Of a DNA stretch of 51,529 nucleotides, positions 15,222 to 50,595 are shown one piece after another; position 1 is the first letter of the stretch; each line of letters starts with the position of its first letter. This DNA comes from Caldifarciminota bacterium (GTDB taxonomy: Bacteria; Hydrothermota; Hydrothermia; LBFQ01; DSFT01). The notes under the pieces were generated by a model, which was not told the DNA's origin, did not search any database, and saw nothing but the letters and a program-made list of their open reading frames with translations. The stretch is taken from positions 1-51,529 of the forward strand of contig JANXBH010000012.1 in NCBI GenBank assembly GCA_025060695.1, read 5' to 3'. The position numbers and the translations under genes were made by a program.

Positions 15222-16193
15222 ATGACTTTAATGAACATGGCACAAGCAATAAACAATGCACTAAACTTAATTATGGAAAATGACGATAAAGTTATAGTAT
15301 TTGGAGAAGATGTTGGGAGACTTGGAGGAGTATTTCTTATTACAGAAGGATTAATGGATAAATTTGGAAAAGAAAGAGTATTTGATACACCTATTAGTGA
15401 AGCGGGAATAGTTGGAATGGCTATAGGTCTTGCGATTGGAGGCTATAAACCAATATGCGAAATTCAATTTTCAGGGTTTTCATATTTATCCTTCAACCAG
15501 ATTATTTCCCATTTAAGCAGGTGGAAGTTTAGGAGTCATGGAAGATTTAAGATGAATTTAATAATAAGGATGCCAAATGGAGGAGGAGTAAAAGCCCCAG
15601 AACTACATTCTGAAAGTATTGAAAGTTATTTAATGGCAACACCGGGAATAAAAATTTTATATCCTTCAAATCCTTACGATGCAAAGGGACTTTTAATTAG
15701 TGCTATTGAAGATGGAGAACCTATAATATTCTTAGAACATATTAAACTATACAGATACGAAAAAATGCAAGTGCCCGAGGATTACTATAAAGTTCCAATT
15801 GGGAAGGCAAATATTATAAAAGAGGGAAAAGACGTTAGCATAATAACTTATGGATATGGAACCATACTTGCAAGGGAATATAGTAAAATTTCTCATTATG
15901 ATATTGAAATTATTGATTTAAGAAGTTTAATACCATTAGATGAAGAGACTATATACAATAGTGTAAAGAAAACAGGAAGAGTAGTAATAATATCTGAAAC
16001 ACATAGAACTATGTCAGTTGCAAGTGAAATATCTTCAAGAATCTCAGAAAACATAATAGAGTATTTATATGCACCGATTATAAAAGTTTGTGCTTTAGAT
16101 ATACCATATCCACCATCTATGCTTGAAGAACAATACTTACCGAGTATTAAGGATATAGAAAATGCGGTAAATTTTGTAATAAATTATGAATAA
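15222..16193 (+). CDS. pdhB: 2-oxoacid dehydrogenase E1 component, beta subunit (pyruvate dehydrogenase type)
   Basis: This 323-aa protein aligns in style with PdhB/BkdB: VFGEDVGRLGGVFLITEGL at the N-terminus, FDTPISEAGIVGMAIGLA, and EIQFSGFSYLSFNQI. It forms the thiamine-diphosphate E1 heterotetramer with an alpha subunit and decarboxylates pyruvate or a branched 2-oxoacid. No alpha subunit, E2 or E3 gene is nearby, which is unusual, since alpha and beta are normally adjacent. Substrate is undetermined (pyruvate versus branched-chain). Its end overlaps the next gene by 8 bp. Confidence 0.9.
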   Translation: MTLMNMAQAINNALNLIMENDDKVIVFGEDVGRLGGVFLITEGLMDKFGKERVFDTPISEAGIVGMAIGLAIGGYKPICEIQFSGFSYLSFNQIISHLSRWKFRSHGRFKMNLIIRMPNGGGVKAPELHSESIESYLMATPGIKILYPSNPYDAKGLLISAIEDGEPIIFLEHIKLYRYEKMQVPEDYYKVPIGKANIIKEGKDVSIITYGYGTILAREYSKISHYDIEIIDLRSLIPLDEETIYNSVKKTGRVVIISETHRTMSVASEISSRISENIIEYLYAPIIKVCALDIPYPPSMLEEQYLPSIKDIENAVNFVINYE

Positions 16194-17106
16194 ATATTTT
16201 TTAATTTCCATAGATACAGAATGCGACAAAGACAAAAAATGGCGTATAATAAAACCTTTAAGTTTTATAGGGATTTACAAGGGGATAGAAATTCTTGAAA
16301 GGATTTTTGAAAAATATAACATAAGAGCAATTTATCTTTTAAGTCCTGAGGTAATGAAAGACAAAAAAAGTGTATTGATTTTTAGAGATTTACAAAAGAG
16401 AGAAGTTGAGCTTGGTACACATTTGCATGGGGAATTTATAGAGCCGTATGAAAACTATAGTGTGGAATATGCCATGGAATATGCAAGTAGTTATAGTGAT
16501 GAAATTGAGTTTGAAAAATTAAAAAATTTAACAAATTTATTTTTAGAAAGCTTTGGGACTTTGCCTTTTAGTTATAGAGCAGGTAGATTTGCAATTAGTG
16601 ATAGAACATATAAATTTTTAAGTAATTTAGGCTATAAGGTAGATAGTTCAGTTGTCCCATTTTTAAAAATTTCAAATATTGACCATACTCAAAAACTTGA
16701 CTATCCATATTTTGTTGACAATATATTAGAAATCCCTGTTAGCGTATTTTCAAGAAACCCGAAGTTATATAGAATTCTGAGAAATTCAAGATTATACGAG
16801 TTAAGATTTTTTAGAAGAATATTAAATAAAATTCTTAAGGTAATTTGGATTAGACCTTCGCACTATAGTTTTTACGAGATGAAACTTGGAATAGAATTAT
16901 ACGAAAAAAAATACAGAGAAAAGGATATTTTTATAAATGTGATGTTTCATAACATTGAAGTAATTGATGGCTTAAGCCCATATAGTAGTAAATTCCTATT
17001 AGAAAATTTACATTTACTTTTGGAATATTTCTTGAAAAATGAATATAAAAACCTAACTTTTAAAGATGCTTACAATATAATCGTCTCAAAAACTTTAAAA
17101 TTTTAG
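16186..17106 (+). CDS. polysaccharide-deacetylase-like (NodB-fold) protein
   Basis: This 306-aa protein opens with FLISIDTECDKD, where the Asp of the carbohydrate esterase family 4 fold sits after a beta strand (Asp10). It later has the metal-ligand pair in LGTHLHGEF and the SYRAGRFA segment typical of the NodB-like fold. Such enzymes remove N- or O-acyl groups from cell-wall or extracellular glycans. No signal peptide is evident, so it may act on a cytoplasmic lipid-linked glycan. It overlaps the E1-beta gene. Its last codons (KTLKF) contain the TAAAAT box of the next gene. Confidence 0.82.
   Translation: MNKYFLISIDTECDKDKKWRIIKPLSFIGIYKGIEILERIFEKYNIRAIYLLSPEVMKDKKSVLIFRDLQKREVELGTHLHGEFIEPYENYSVEYAMEYASSYSDEIEFEKLKNLTNLFLESFGTLPFSYRAGRFAISDRTYKFLSNLGYKVDSSVVPFLKISNIDHTQKLDYPYFVDNILEIPVSVFSRNPKLYRILRNSRLYELRFFRRILNKILKVIWIRPSHYSFYEMKLGIELYEKKYREKDIFINVMFHNIEVIDGLSPYSSKFLLENLHLLLEYFLKNEYKNLTFKDAYNIIVSKTLKF
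17094..17101 (+). promoter_or_regulatory. -10 box (TTTAAAAT) for rlpA, inside the deacetylase CDS
   Basis: CTTTAAAATTTTAG lies with TAAAAT (17096-17101) 5 nt before ATA 17107 and 8 nt before ATT 17110. These are the only plausible starts for the gene that follows. The spacing matches other leaderless genes in the window. Confidence 0.5.
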
Positions 17107-17736
17107 ATAATTCTTACTTTATTTTTTTATCCAGAAGTAGAAGAAGGTTATGCAGAAGTATATGCTAAAAAGTATGAAAACAAAAAAACTGCATCAGGTG
17201 AAATTTATAAATCTAATTTATTTACAGGAGCACATCCCTACCTTCCGTTTGGGACAATAGTAGAGGTAATAAATTTAAAAAATGGGAAAAAGGTAAAACT
17301 TAAGATAAATGATAGATTTATTCCAAAGGGAAATGTAATTATTCATCTTTCTGAAAAATCTGCCAATGAATTAGAAATAAAAGGAAAGGGTAAAGTTAGA
17401 TTAGTTGTAAAGTCTATTCCAGAAGGAAAAGAGAAATTTATTCAAAGAGGGTATGCAAGCTGGTATGGAGGTAAATTTCATGGCAGGAAAACCGCATGTG
17501 GTATTGTTTTTGATACATACAAGTACTACGCAGCACACAAGACACTACCCTGTGGCACTATTTTAAAAGTCACTAATCTAAAAAATAATAAATCAGTTGA
17601 AGTAAAAGTAGTAGATAGAGGTCCTTTTAAAAAGGGAAGAATAATTGACCTATCTTATATAAGTGCAAAGGAGTTAGGAATAGTTTCAAGTGGGGTTGAA
17701 CTTGTTGAGATTGAAGTATTAAAATGGCCCTATTAG
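17107..17736 (+). CDS. tandem RlpA-like double-psi beta-barrel protein starting at ATA/ATT
   Basis: The open frame of 209 codons contains no ATG, GTG or TTG at all, yet it encodes two clear RlpA/DPBB domains. Domain 1 (about 14-102) has GYAEVYAKKY, TASGEIY, LPFGTIVEVINLKNG and NDRF. Domain 2 (about 113-204) has GYASWYGGKFHGRKTACG, AAHKTLPCGTILKVTNLKN and VVDRGPFKKGRIIDLS. RlpA proteins bind or cleave peptidoglycan glycans lacking stem peptides. Domain 2 keeps the acidic pair Asp170/Asp181; in domain 1 the second acid is His80, so it may only bind. The N-terminus IILTLFFYPE is a very short signal. The gene lies between the deacetylase stop and the MFS gene, overlapping the latter by 13 bp. Confidence 0.85.
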   Translation: MILTLFFYPEVEEGYAEVYAKKYENKKTASGEIYKSNLFTGAHPYLPFGTIVEVINLKNGKKVKLKINDRFIPKGNVIIHLSEKSANELEIKGKGKVRLVVKSIPEGKEKFIQRGYASWYGGKFHGRKTACGIVFDTYKYYAAHKTLPCGTILKVTNLKNNKSVEVKVVDRGPFKKGRIIDLSYISAKELGIVSSGVELVEIEVLKWPY

Positions 17737-19766: not shown

Positions 19767-19783
19767 ATGTTGTTCGTCATTAG
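19510..19783 (+). pseudogene. small protein gene, apparently frameshifted
   Basis: Frame 1 (GTG 19510 to stop 19647; or ATA 19528/19531 after the GGAGGTGAG) reads IIWLISEIVNPYVMERDINR and then EIYDDNWHNYKKLTWK. Frame 2 (ATG 19607 to stop 19783) reads NNLTFIKYDNFKKAIYMKLQ and EDSLKVVKLLEEKGVNNYVV. Removing one base at TGGAAATAATC (near 19645) fuses them into one charged protein of about 85-90 residues. I do not recognise it. Its end overlaps the start of the secreted protein at 19767, so it could be a small coupled upstream gene. It may also be two real short ORFs. Confidence 0.4.
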
Positions 19784-21353
19784 TGTGCAAATGTGGTCAG
19801 GACTGAGAACCTTTGGTGGAGCAAATTGGGACCAATTATGGGGTGTAGACTTCAATGCACCAGGAAATAGAGTAGTTTCAAATCTTTTCTCAATGACATA
19901 TAAAATAGACAATAGCACAGGTTCTGATTTTGTAGTAATAGTGACTACACCATTTGGAACAAGTATATGGGAAAGAGTAGTAGGTAGGTCAAACATGAAT
20001 GAATGGTCATACAAGATAACATACGATAATGCAGGAAATCCAATAGTTGGAGGTGTAAGCTGTGTCCCAAGTGGTGGTCCTTCAAATTGTCAGCTTTCAG
20101 GAAGCACAAGAGCCTTTGCTATTAAGTTAAATGGGACAAATGGAAGCTTTCTATCTGCAAGAGATATTGCATCAAGCTGGGGAACAGCCGATTGGGTAAG
20201 GATAATGTCCATTAATAGCACAAGTGATGGAGGATTCGTAGTAGCGGGAGATGTTTACTACGACTCATGGACTGGGGATATAGATGGTTTTGTAGCCAAG
20301 TTTGATGCAAACATGAACTTACAATGGGCAAGAGCAGTAGGAACAACAAGTGTTGAATGGCTAACAACAGCTTTTCAGACAACTGATGGAAATATTGTAG
20401 TTATCGGACCATCTTTTTATGAAATATGGGTTGCAAAGTTCAATGTAAGTAATGGAAATACCATATGGCAAAGAAGATATCCAAGAACCTACTATGATGA
20501 TGGAGTAGGTAAATACTTTACTTGGGGTAAGCCTGCATCTGATGGAGGAATTATCATAGCAGATGAGATTAGTGGAGGAAATAATAGAGATGTTCTGTTT
20601 TTAAAACTAAATTCAAATGGCGATTTTGTATGTGCAAGAAGGATTGGTGGTACAGGACATGATGCAGGTATAGATATAGTAGAAGGAGCAGATTATTACT
20701 ACTTAGCAGGTTTTTGGAACTCTTATGACTTATTTTATGCAAGGTTTGATAAGACAAATTGTAATTTAGTAGGAAATGTTAGATATATTCTATCAGGTAA
20801 TGATGAGTCTGCGAGGGCTATTGATATTAGAAGCTCATCAAATGTTCCATATGTTGCAGGTTATACAAATAGACCTGATTGGACTGCTGGTAATTATGAT
20901 GGTTTATTAGCAGCAGATAGTGGTATTCAAGATACTTGCTATTGGAGGAGTCTAACTCCTTCAACTAATGTCTCAGTTTCACTTTCAGCAAGTGGAAGTT
21001 GGGATATTTACGGAAATCCAATAACTGTAAGTTCGGCAACTTATACTGCCAATAGTGTTAATACTAATAAAACTGTAGCTTGTGGTTTATTAACGCCTGT
21101 TAACACATCTGAAAAATATGAAGATTGCTATATTTCAATATCAAGAAACGGTAAATTTTTAAATATCAGGTCAAAAAATAAGCAAGATATAGATATAAGC
21201 ATATATTCAGTAGATGGAAGGCTCGTCTATAAAAAGGAAATTAAAAACTTTGAAGGTGAATTTAGTGAAAGATTAAGTCTATTAAAAGGAATATATGTAG
21301 TTAGCATAGCTTATATCGGAGGAAGGTTAATTAAACAAATTGTAGTTAAGTAA
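19767..21353 (+). CDS. secreted propeller-type protein with C-terminal sorting tail
   Basis: The ATG is set by AAAGGAG 11 nt upstream and an in-frame TAA at 19758. The N-terminus MLFVISVQMWSG is an extremely short hydrophobic signal with no basic residues. The body is built of bladed repeats such as 'TSDGGFVVAGDVYYD ... DGFVAKFDANMNLQWARAVG', also found in the 7056, 10431 and 40392 proteins and resembling SBBP/delta-60 repeats. The tail reads DISIYSVDGRLVYKKE and KGIYVVSIAYIGGR. Length is 528 aa. It is followed after 12 nt by a second tailed protein, so the two probably form an operon. Function is unknown. Confidence 0.8.
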   Translation: MLFVISVQMWSGLRTFGGANWDQLWGVDFNAPGNRVVSNLFSMTYKIDNSTGSDFVVIVTTPFGTSIWERVVGRSNMNEWSYKITYDNAGNPIVGGVSCVPSGGPSNCQLSGSTRAFAIKLNGTNGSFLSARDIASSWGTADWVRIMSINSTSDGGFVVAGDVYYDSWTGDIDGFVAKFDANMNLQWARAVGTTSVEWLTTAFQTTDGNIVVIGPSFYEIWVAKFNVSNGNTIWQRRYPRTYYDDGVGKYFTWGKPASDGGIIIADEISGGNNRDVLFLKLNSNGDFVCARRIGGTGHDAGIDIVEGADYYYLAGFWNSYDLFYARFDKTNCNLVGNVRYILSGNDESARAIDIRSSSNVPYVAGYTNRPDWTAGNYDGLLAADSGIQDTCYWRSLTPSTNVSVSLSASGSWDIYGNPITVSSATYTANSVNTNKTVACGLLTPVNTSEKYEDCYISISRNGKFLNIRSKNKQDIDISIYSVDGRLVYKKEIKNFEGEFSERLSLLKGIYVVSIAYIGGRLIKQIVVK

Positions 21354-43683: not shown

Positions 43684-44451
43684 ATGAAAAAATTATTTTT
43701 CATTATATTTATTCTTTCTTGCTCTAAGATAGAAAATCCAAATATTTTAGTTTCAATTTATCCTTTAAAACTCGTTCTAAATGAAATTGGTATAAGTAGC
43801 TACGCACTTATAGATAAAGTAGTTGATATTCATAGTTTTGAGCCTTCTATAAGGACAATACTGAATGTACAAAATACCTGTGGTTTTATATATATATCGG
43901 ATAATCTTGAAACTTGGGCAAATAACATAACTTCAAAATATAAATTAGAACTTCTTGAAAATAATACGAACTTACATGCATGGACCGATCCAAAATTTAT
44001 TCTAAATAAAATGTCAGATATTGAAAGTCTTTTATTGAAGTGCAAAATAAACTATTCAAAGGATAGTATAAATAAATTAATTTCAAAGCTAAAGAAAATT
44101 GATAGTACAAACGCGAATATAGCGAGTAAAATAAGAGTAGAATATATCCTTTTTCATACTTCATTTGAACCATTTTTAAAGTCTTATAATCTAAAAATTA
44201 GAACAATTCTATTAAAAGAAGGACATGCGGATATTTTACCAAGTGATTTAGAAAAAGCCCTATCTTCAAAGGATAAAGTAATAATAAAAGAAAACTACTA
44301 TAGCGATGAATTGTTAAGGATATTCAAGGAAAAGAGCTTTAGAATTATTTCGCTCGATCCATATGGTTTTAGCTTCAAGACATATAGTGATTTTATAAAG
44401 TACATTAGCGATAGTATCTTAGGAAATACATATACCTTAGAAGAGAACTAG
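43684..44451 (+). CDS. metal ABC transporter substrate-binding lipoprotein (ZnuA/TroA-like)
   Basis: This 255-aa protein has a very short lipoprotein signal (MKKLFFIIFILSCS, lipid Cys13). It has the cluster A-I features: VSIYPLKLVL, the VDIHSFEPS ligand region, and LHAWTDP in place of HxWLDP. Further on come a long central helix with short lysine-rich segments, then the SLDPYGFSF acid. These bind Zn or Mn in the periplasm. No ABC permease or ATPase gene is adjacent, so it may be an orphan. Its third histidine site is altered. The 3' end overlaps murJ convergently by 47 bp. Confidence 0.82.
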   Translation: MKKLFFIIFILSCSKIENPNILVSIYPLKLVLNEIGISSYALIDKVVDIHSFEPSIRTILNVQNTCGFIYISDNLETWANNITSKYKLELLENNTNLHAWTDPKFILNKMSDIESLLLKCKINYSKDSINKLISKLKKIDSTNANIASKIRVEYILFHTSFEPFLKSYNLKIRTILLKEGHADILPSDLEKALSSKDKVIIKENYYSDELLRIFKEKSFRIISLDPYGFSFKTYSDFIKYISDSILGNTYTLEEN

Positions 44452-45637
44452 TAAAATTACCTAATGCTATTGCATAAAATCCGATAAACAAAGAAAATAC
44501 TAACATTGTTAAGATATCTACAATTGTACCAATAACAAAAGAAGTATTTATTTTTTTTATATCTTTCATCGCAAATGCATAACTTGTAAGTATTTTTGTA
44601 GCACTTGCAAAGGGTAGACTAATTAAATAGATTATTAAAACTACTGAAGTAATTTTTGCGTCAATTGAAGTAAAATTTCCTCTTTCATATAAAACTTTTA
44701 CTATAAACTCTGAAAAAACTGCAAAGAAAATAGTAATAGGAATTGTTATGAAAAAACTCATCCTAAGAGCTCTTCTTAAGTCTTTTATTGGTTCTTTTGA
44801 CTTTGTAAAATCTACAATTGCTATAGTAGAGATTGCTATACCTGTTATAGCAAGTGGAAAGTGAAATATTCTAAAAGCGTAGTTTAAATAGCTGATTGCT
44901 CCACTTTGAAAAAATGAAGCAAGGAATGTACTAAAAAATAGATTTATTTCATTAAATCCATAAGCCAAAAATGTAGGTAGTAGTAATTTGTAAAAAGTCT
45001 TAATCGAAGGGTTATTAAAGTCAGGTTTTTCAAATTTTTCATTTAAAAACAATATTAGAAGTATCGTTTGTACTATTACTCCAATAGTAAAGCCTATGGA
45101 AAGTGATATTTCTTTATCAAAATTTGAAAATATCCCAAATAAAACTATGGATATATTTATAATACTAGGAGCAACTGAAGTTATAAAGAACTTTCCTTTC
45201 GTATTCAGGACAGCAGAAAATATTGAAGAAATTGAGAAGAAAAAAAGTGAAGGTAAAGTAATATAAGTTAAAAATAATGCTAGGTTGAACTTCTCATTAT
45301 CTTTTAAAAATCCCGGAGCGGTTATAATTAATAAAGGTTTTGCAAAAATTATAAGAATAATGTTAATTATTAGAACAATTAGAGAAAACTGGATAAAAAT
45401 CGCCCATAGAAATTTTCTTGAATAGTTTGAATTTGCATAAGCGGGAATAAATGCGTTATTTAATGCTTGATCTCCCAACAAATCTCTAAATAGGTTCGGT
45501 ATTCTAAATGCAACAAAGAACGCATCTGACTTACTACTTGCACCAAGTAGATAAGCAATTACTATCTCTCTTATTAATCCTGTTATTCTACTAATAATTG
45601 TTCCAATTGAAAATAAAATTACAGATTTAAAATTAAT
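44405..45637 (-). CDS. murJ: lipid II flippase MurJ (MviN family), probable ATT start
   Basis: The N-terminus upstream of the first TTG (45481) is clearly MurJ: INFKSVILFSIGTIISRITG, LGASSKSDAFFVAFRIPNLF and RDLLGDQALNNAFIPAY follow in frame. The only start at the homologous position is ATT at 45637. It lies 6 nt from a CTTTAAAAT box; no ATG/GTG/TTG exists between the upstream stop and 45481. MurJ flips lipid II across the inner membrane. The ~410-aa length is about 100 residues short of E. coli MurJ (14 helices), so the last one or two helices are absent. The 3' end overlaps the ZnuA-like gene. Confidence 0.88.
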   Translation of the reverse strand: MNFKSVILFSIGTIISRITGLIREIVIAYLLGASSKSDAFFVAFRIPNLFRDLLGDQALNNAFIPAYANSNYSRKFLWAIFIQFSLIVLIINIILIIFAKPLLIITAPGFLKDNEKFNLALFLTYITLPSLFFFSISSIFSAVLNTKGKFFITSVAPSIINISIVLFGIFSNFDKEISLSIGFTIGVIVQTILLILFLNEKFEKPDFNNPSIKTFYKLLLPTFLAYGFNEINLFFSTFLASFFQSGAISYLNYAFRIFHFPLAITGIAISTIAIVDFTKSKEPIKDLRRALRMSFFITIPITIFFAVFSEFIVKVLYERGNFTSIDAKITSVVLIIYLISLPFASATKILTSYAFAMKDIKKINTSFVIGTIVDILTMLVFSLFIGFYAIALGNFTSSLLRYMYFLRYYR

Positions 45638-45643
45638 TTGAAA

Positions 45644-45649
45644 ATTTTA
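45644..45649 (-). promoter_or_regulatory. -10 box (TAAAAT) for murJ
   Basis: TCTTTAAAATTTTCAA runs into the ATT at 45637 with a spacing of 6 nt. Confidence 0.5.
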
Positions 45650-45661
45650 AAGATTACGCTT

Positions 45662-45677: not shown

Positions 45678-45751
45678 GCCCCAGTAGCTCAGGAGGATAG
45701 AGCGGTGGCTTCCTAAGCCATAGGTCGGGGGTTCGAATCCCTCCTGGGGCG
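45678..45751 (+). tRNA. tRNA-Arg (anticodon CCT)
   Basis: The cloverleaf is complete: acceptor GCCCCAG/CTGGGGC, D stem GCTC/GAGC, anticodon stem GTGGC/GCCAT with loop TTCCTAA, T arm GGGGG TTCGAAT CCCTC, discriminator G. CCA is not encoded. It reads AGG, common in this genome. It ends 2 nt before the ATG of the subtilase. Confidence 0.96.
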
Positions 45752-45753
45752 CT

Positions 45754-50523: not shown

Positions 50524-50595
50524 AGCGGGCGACGGGATTTGAACCCGCGACCCTCTGCATGGCAAGCAGATGCTCTACCACTGAGCTACGCCCGC
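50524..50595 (-). tRNA. tRNA-Gly (anticodon GCC)
   Basis: The minus-strand cloverleaf has acceptor GCGGGCG/CGCCCGC, D stem GCTC/GAGC, anticodon stem TCTGC/GCAGA with loop TTGCCAT, T arm GCGGG TTCAAAT CCCGT and discriminator T. CCA is not encoded. It reads GGC and GGU. It sits 3 nt upstream of rplS on the same strand. Confidence 0.96.

Follow-up and report, generated by a model that had tools for sequence, protein, structure and literature searches.

Initiation on near-cognate codons is best known from mitochondria, and infC of Escherichia coli has a natural AUU start on an autoregulated message with a leader and a Shine-Dalgarno sequence. A 2010 report by Baudet on Deinococcus deserti is said, in its title, to describe an unusual use of non-canonical initiation codons. 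By that title alone, it resembles the present case in having non-canonical starts in a bacterium with many leaderless messages, and the priority of non-standard leaderless starts relative to D. deserti is uncertain. Human mitochondrial messages are leaderless or have leaders of 1-2 nt, start on AUG, AUA or AUU, and in many cases owe their 5' ends to the excision of tRNAs (PMC9361522). In Mycobacterium, only ATG and GTG work on leaderless messages, and ATT works only behind a Shine-Dalgarno sequence (PMC4633059). The accessible portion of a report on Propionibacterium acnes gives the leaderless starts as AUG (68%), GUG (29%) and UUG (3%) (PMC3848588), and that of a report on Deinococcus-Thermus describes leaderless messages whose -10 motif lies some 6-7 bp upstream of the start (PMC12340547).

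The window (the whole stretch of DNA analysed, 51,529 nucleotides) contains an RlpA-like frame (17107-17733, stop TAG 17734-17736) with no ATG, GTG or TTG in its 209 codons and an in-frame stop directly 5' of it, so that nothing standard can serve as a start. The first-pass annotation had claimed as much, and reading of the frame confirmed it. The features of the locus are as follows, where the gap is the distance in nt from the AAAAT of the box to the start codon.

16186-17106, forward strand: upstream open reading frame of 306 amino acids, in the same frame as rlpA; the RlpA frame follows immediately on its TAG (17104-17106)
17092-17103, forward strand: predicted leaderless promoter (-10) box ACTTTAAAATTT (PWM), with core CTTTAAAAT at 17093-17101; overlaps the last codons of the upstream frame
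17107-17109, forward strand: ATA, candidate start at gap 5, a gap with ATT/ATA precedents in other genes
17110-17112, forward strand: ATT, candidate start at gap 8, a gap with precedents in the ATA starts of coaX and the inositol monophosphatase (IMPase) gene
17107-17736, forward strand: RlpA-like open frame, 209 codons plus stop, without ATG, GTG or TTG (sequence, PF03330, TIGR00413)
about 17146-17421 (extent approximate), forward strand: first, more divergent DPBB domain (PF03330)
17443-17706, forward strand: second, canonical DPBB (RlpA) domain (PF03330, residues 113-200; match to 4avr)

The frame had been called intact and clearly coding, and profile matches bear this out: PF03330 (DPBB) matches two stretches of the protein (E 5.8e-39), best at residues 113-200, and the score of 210 bits for the TIGR00413 rlpA profile exceeds the cut-off of 82. 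The PA4485 structure 4avr matches residues 114-205. Judged by its DPBB domain with the RlpA signature, the protein is a member of the RlpA family (septal ring lytic transglycosylase), with a predicted lytic transglycosylase activity. Its N-terminus, as read from the sequence, has about 7-9 hydrophobic residues, which is short for a signal peptide. The predicted N-terminal hydrophobic stretches of exported proteins in the lineage look very short in general (7-12 residues), as at rlpA (17107-17145), its same-genus orthologue (L002 5001-5040) and an lptC-like gene on G000:C55. The upstream 306-residue frame (16186-17106) had no Pfam match. Elsewhere in the window, the end of a large open reading frame (19767-21353) resembles, by eye, a type IX secretion sorting domain.

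The genome under study (G000) is metagenome-assembled, in 77 contigs. We read 1.396 of its 1.497 Mb (93%) as stretches, in which a simple, custom-made codon-score caller identified 1,281 genes; within this 93% of the genome, rlpA was the sole called gene without any standard start codon in frame. Only 2.8% of all codons are standard starts, and two genes of at least 200 codons lack an internal one, compared to 0.4 expected. We rejected the absence of internal ATG, GTG and TTG as a signal in itself, as it is compatible with chance; what is remarkable is the missing start and its recurrence in a same-genus relative, not the lack of internal starts. The earlier remark that gene callers would miss this gene applies to callers limited to ATG, GTG and TTG.

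A box identical in kind to that of rlpA, with the consensus (A/G)CTTTAAAATTT, emerged as a sharp motif from the regions upstream of ATG genes. The gap to the ATG is mostly 6 or 7 nt and at most 11 (distribution 5-11, peak 6-7, 258 ATG starts). At a box score of at least 10 and gaps of 6-11, the box precedes 331 ATG, 62 TTG and 37 GTG starts. Because it is also found upstream of tRNA genes (30 of 41, gap 7-17), the box is a promoter element rather than a ribosome-binding site, and by its distribution it is a genome-wide -10 element of predicted leaderless messages. Where leaderless genes diverge, the short region between them holds two CTTTAAAATTT boxes, inverted and back to back, as upstream of the same-genus rlpA, and inverted boxes occur in 132 of 155 divergent pairs (neighbour within 250 nt) versus 2 of 104 co-directional ones. 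We considered and rejected inverted upstream boxes as a special element, as they belong to the divergent neighbours.

The rlpA box scores 17.5 of a possible 18.03 in the PWM. It had been described as standing 8 nt before the ATT and as matching that of other leaderless genes, and both statements hold: the core (17093-17101) places the ATT at gap 8 and the ATA at gap 5, and the box recurs genome-wide before several hundred starts. No Shine-Dalgarno sequence was found in AAAACTTTAAAATTTTAGATAATT, the sequence before the rlpA start. Neither candidate is ideally placed, because gap 5 is rare for ATG starts (3 of 258) and gap 8 is off the peak. The ATT (17110-17112) aligns without a gap with an ATT of the same-genus orthologue, and both spacings have precedents at other non-standard starts. 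The annotation's proposal that rlpA starts at ATA 17107 or ATT 17110 is supported; the two codons cannot be told apart.

We compared rlpA with its orthologues in a same-genus species (G001) and in a sister genus (G002 and G003). The same-genus orthologue, which is 80% identical, likewise has none of the standard starts among its first 54 open codons: the frame opens GCT TTA AAA TTT TCT ATT ATC TTT, and the first standard start is the ATG at codon 55. It carries the same box, CTTTAAAATTTT, with ATT and ATC at the candidate positions. In the sister genus, a related box, ATCTAAAAT, is followed by an ATG at gap 7, and the alignments of protein and box agree within one or two codons. The proposed comparison with relatives finds no standard start at the rlpA position in the same-genus species and ATG in the sister genus. 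Between the two same-genus species, dN/dS is 0.136/1.06 (about 0.13) overall, indicating purifying selection. For the part of the frame that precedes every standard start codon in both species, it is 0.067/0.95 (about 0.07), which argues that this part is translated.

Given these observations, it is highly probable that rlpA is a working gene whose leaderless message is translated from AUA or AUU, in a genus that tolerates near-cognate starts. The RlpA frame could instead be made by read-through of TAG 17104-17106 or by re-initiation coupled to the upstream frame, which ends in the same frame directly before it. Neither process can serve in the same-genus species, because the upstream neighbour there is a tRNA-Leu on the other strand; a TAA closes the rlpA frame shortly before the box, and the start is equally non-standard. 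This divergent tRNA also speaks against a fusion to an upstream ATG in relatives, which was named beforehand as a possible refutation and is absent. With a near-perfect leaderless promoter box right at the rlpA start as well, we consider read-through or coupling very improbable.

Leaderless initiation on AUA or AUU at rlpA would not be an isolated case. The annotation had presented such a start as unusual for an envelope gene. About 20 of the 1,281 called genes seem to begin on ATT, ATA, ATC or CTG, with one perhaps on GTA, either behind the box, just after the 3' end of a tRNA, or behind a Shine-Dalgarno sequence. Those behind the box include the following.

polA: CTG, gap 7; strong box, no standard start near
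coaX: ATA, gap 8; strong box, no standard start near
inositol monophosphatase gene: ATA, gap 8; strong box, no standard start near
lepB: CTG, gap 7; strong box, no standard start near
MFS transporter: ATA, gap 6; strong box, no standard start near
ABC ATPase: ATT, gap 5; strong box, no standard start near
LptC-like gene: ATT, gap 7; strong box, no standard start near; name from a weak match or the sequence
GT9 glycosyltransferase (heptosyltransferase-like): GTA, gap 6; open frame G000:C4 38671-39585, forward strand; strong box, no standard start near; name from a weak match or the sequence
mfd: ATC; weaker box
mtnA: ATA; weaker box
DMT-like gene: ATT; weaker box; name from a weak match or the sequence

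Ten genes, excluding rlpA, combine a strong box with no standard start nearby, and eight of them have ATT, ATA, ATC or CTG at gap 5-8, compared to 1.7 expected; the P value of about 2e-5 is only indicative, because this class of codons was chosen only once the data had first been inspected. The remaining two are a tRNA gene, which is a false positive, and the gene with GTA. Windows shifted by -9 to +24 nt contain 0-3 such codons in the same set. The alignment of orthologous starts is independent of the P value, and a 305-kb sample of the same-genus genome independently gives the same picture of non-standard starts.

A second example, murJ, lies within the window.

44405-45646, reverse strand: murJ open frame with stop (TIGR01695), the second gene of the window with an apparent non-standard leaderless start
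45635-45637, reverse strand: ATT, apparent murJ start at gap 6, aligned with ATT in the same-genus species; the frame has no standard start until codon 55
45642-45653, reverse strand: predicted leaderless box TCTTTAAAATTT of murJ (PWM 13.7)

Counted from this ATT, residue 3 of MurJ matches position 3 of the TIGR01695 profile. The same-genus murJ also has ATT, at gap 5 and followed by 33 codons without another start, and the sister genus has an adjoining TTG. Other genes show a similar exchange at aligned positions: lepB has CTG, TTG and ATG across relatives, mfd has ATC versus GTG, the LptC-like gene ATT versus GTG, the ABC ATPase ATT versus ATG, and the GT9 gene GTA, TTG and TTG. The inositol monophosphatase gene keeps its ATA in the same-genus species, there at gap 5, with no standard start for 199 codons. 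The GTA of the heptosyltransferase-like gene aligns with TTG in three relatives; GUA is two mismatches away from AUG.

The start of rlpA could also lie downstream of both candidates, on an even rarer kind of start codon such as the CTT at gap 11, with the protein otherwise as described from its second residue on. Some encouragement for this comes from the GT9 gene, where GTA is the sole near-start at the box and aligns with TTG in relatives, so that codons beyond ATN and NTG may also work. Nearly all other cases are one mismatch from ATG, and such a start at rlpA is as improbable as read-through or coupling. Slightly less probable still is a pseudogene or an assembly error in which the start codon was lost or misread. 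The fragmented, metagenome-assembled genome would allow this; the frame, however, is intact under a dN/dS of about 0.13, and about 20 genes, including some that are essential in other bacteria, share this pattern, and only at this position. A chance base error hiding an ATG, another refutation foreseen by the annotation, is unlikely because the independently assembled same-genus orthologue also lacks a standard start. Least probable is a programmed frameshift from a short upstream frame with a normal start, as in prfB. Such cases exist, since prfB is itself one of the start-less frames found in this genome, and near 17180 there is a slippery A AAA AAA run in another frame. A shift there would skip conserved residues under selection, and in the same-genus species the sequence that separates the tRNA from the rlpA frame has no ATG, GTG or TTG in any frame.

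For the preferred reading, initiation of rlpA on AUA or AUU, RNA polymerase would start a few bases after ACTTTAAAATTT, giving a message that begins at, or 1-3 nt before, ATA 17107 or ATT 17110. The ribosome would then start on AUA or AUU, presumably with the ordinary fMet-tRNA(CAU) and one mismatch. More generally, near-cognate starts (AUU, AUA, AUC, CUG) would be used chiefly on messages whose 5' end adjoins the start codon, whether that end is set by a promoter or by removal of an upstream tRNA; use after a Shine-Dalgarno sequence would be less common. What the sequences show directly is that rlpA lacks a standard start and has the box, that its protein is under selection and that starts align in relatives; the rlpA transcription start, initiation itself, the use of fMet-tRNA and secretion of the product are what we infer.

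No missing factor explains the AUU and AUA starts, because IF3 (infC, over the profile cut-off), TilS, a standard initiator tRNA and a standard-looking 16S anti-Shine-Dalgarno sequence are all present. Loss of IF3 was therefore rejected, as were an unusual initiator tRNA and loss of the anti-Shine-Dalgarno sequence. We also rejected the reading of AUA as Met, given TilS and the three CAU tRNAs found, as in ordinary bacteria; it would in any case leave ATT and CTG unexplained. E. coli infC resembles our cases in its AUU start and differs in its leader and Shine-Dalgarno sequence, and infC here starts not on AUU but on TTG behind the Shine-Dalgarno sequence AAGGAGGT (G000:C55, L175 1489-1491).

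Human mitochondria, with AUA and AUU leaderless starts and tRNA-cut 5' ends, offer the closest parallel (PMC9361522). They differ in being organelles with an altered code, whereas this genome has TilS, a standard initiator tRNA and an anti-Shine-Dalgarno sequence, and seems to use CUG too. As in Mycobacterium, a start codon at the 5' end would define the frame; in contrast, TTG, ATT, ATA and CTG seem to work leaderless here, and the use of AUU, AUA and CUG would be new relative to Mycobacterium because only ATG and GTG initiate there (PMC4633059). P. acnes shares non-AUG leaderless starts, although the accessible portion of that report gives no AUU, AUA or CUG (PMC3848588). In Deinococcus-Thermus, too, the -10 motif lies beside the open reading frame and leaves no room for a Shine-Dalgarno sequence; the box here is CTTTAAAATTT, and the accessible portion of that report describes standard starts such as GTG and mentions no ATT or ATA (PMC12340547). 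It is possible, if somewhat doubtful, that this genus of free-living bacteria translates in a mitochondrion-like mode: promoter boxes and cutting at tRNA 3' ends would produce leaderless messages, and the codon at the 5' end would act as start, AUU, AUA, AUC, CUG and GUA included, its position counting for more than its identity. The best-studied leaderless systems accept only AUG and GUG, whereas AUU, AUA, AUC and CUG appear here in many genes, including polA, murJ, lepB and coaX, which are essential in other bacteria, and these starts are kept or exchanged with AUG, UUG or GUG between related species. If true, this would be a bacterial parallel to mitochondrial initiation and would make recognition of leaderless start codons directly testable with natural messages. 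In genomes of this kind, gene callers restricted to ATG, GTG and TTG would then cut genes short or miss them.

Genes without the box also emerged when we screened for coding sequence 5' of the first standard start. The screen returned prfB, as expected from its programmed frameshift, and thus detects start-less frames of other origin as well. Behind a Shine-Dalgarno or similar sequence are bamA (CTG; CTG in the same-genus species, TTG in the sister genus), a second glycosyltransferase gene (ATA; ATA in the same-genus species, ATG one codon on in the sister genus) and, less certainly, an agmatinase-like gene (ATT) and pcm (ATA). Other genes directly follow a tRNA: rdgB after tRNA-Tyr (CTG) and a glycosyltransferase gene after tRNA-Val (ATA) keep both codon and tRNA in the same-genus species and have ATG in the sister genus, and a HAD phosphatase gene after tRNA-Leu (CTG) has ATG in the same-genus species. 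Processing of tRNA 3' ends would in such cases make leaderless messages, as in the tRNA punctuation of mitochondria. Across this genome, a coding frame starts within -3 to +12 nt of the 3' end at 20 of the 34 tRNA genes without a following tRNA, compared to 3 of 41 in a control at the 5' end leaving on the other strand. These junctions are partly conserved in the same-genus species, and two lie in the window, at 45678-45752 (forward strand) and 50524-50595 (reverse strand).
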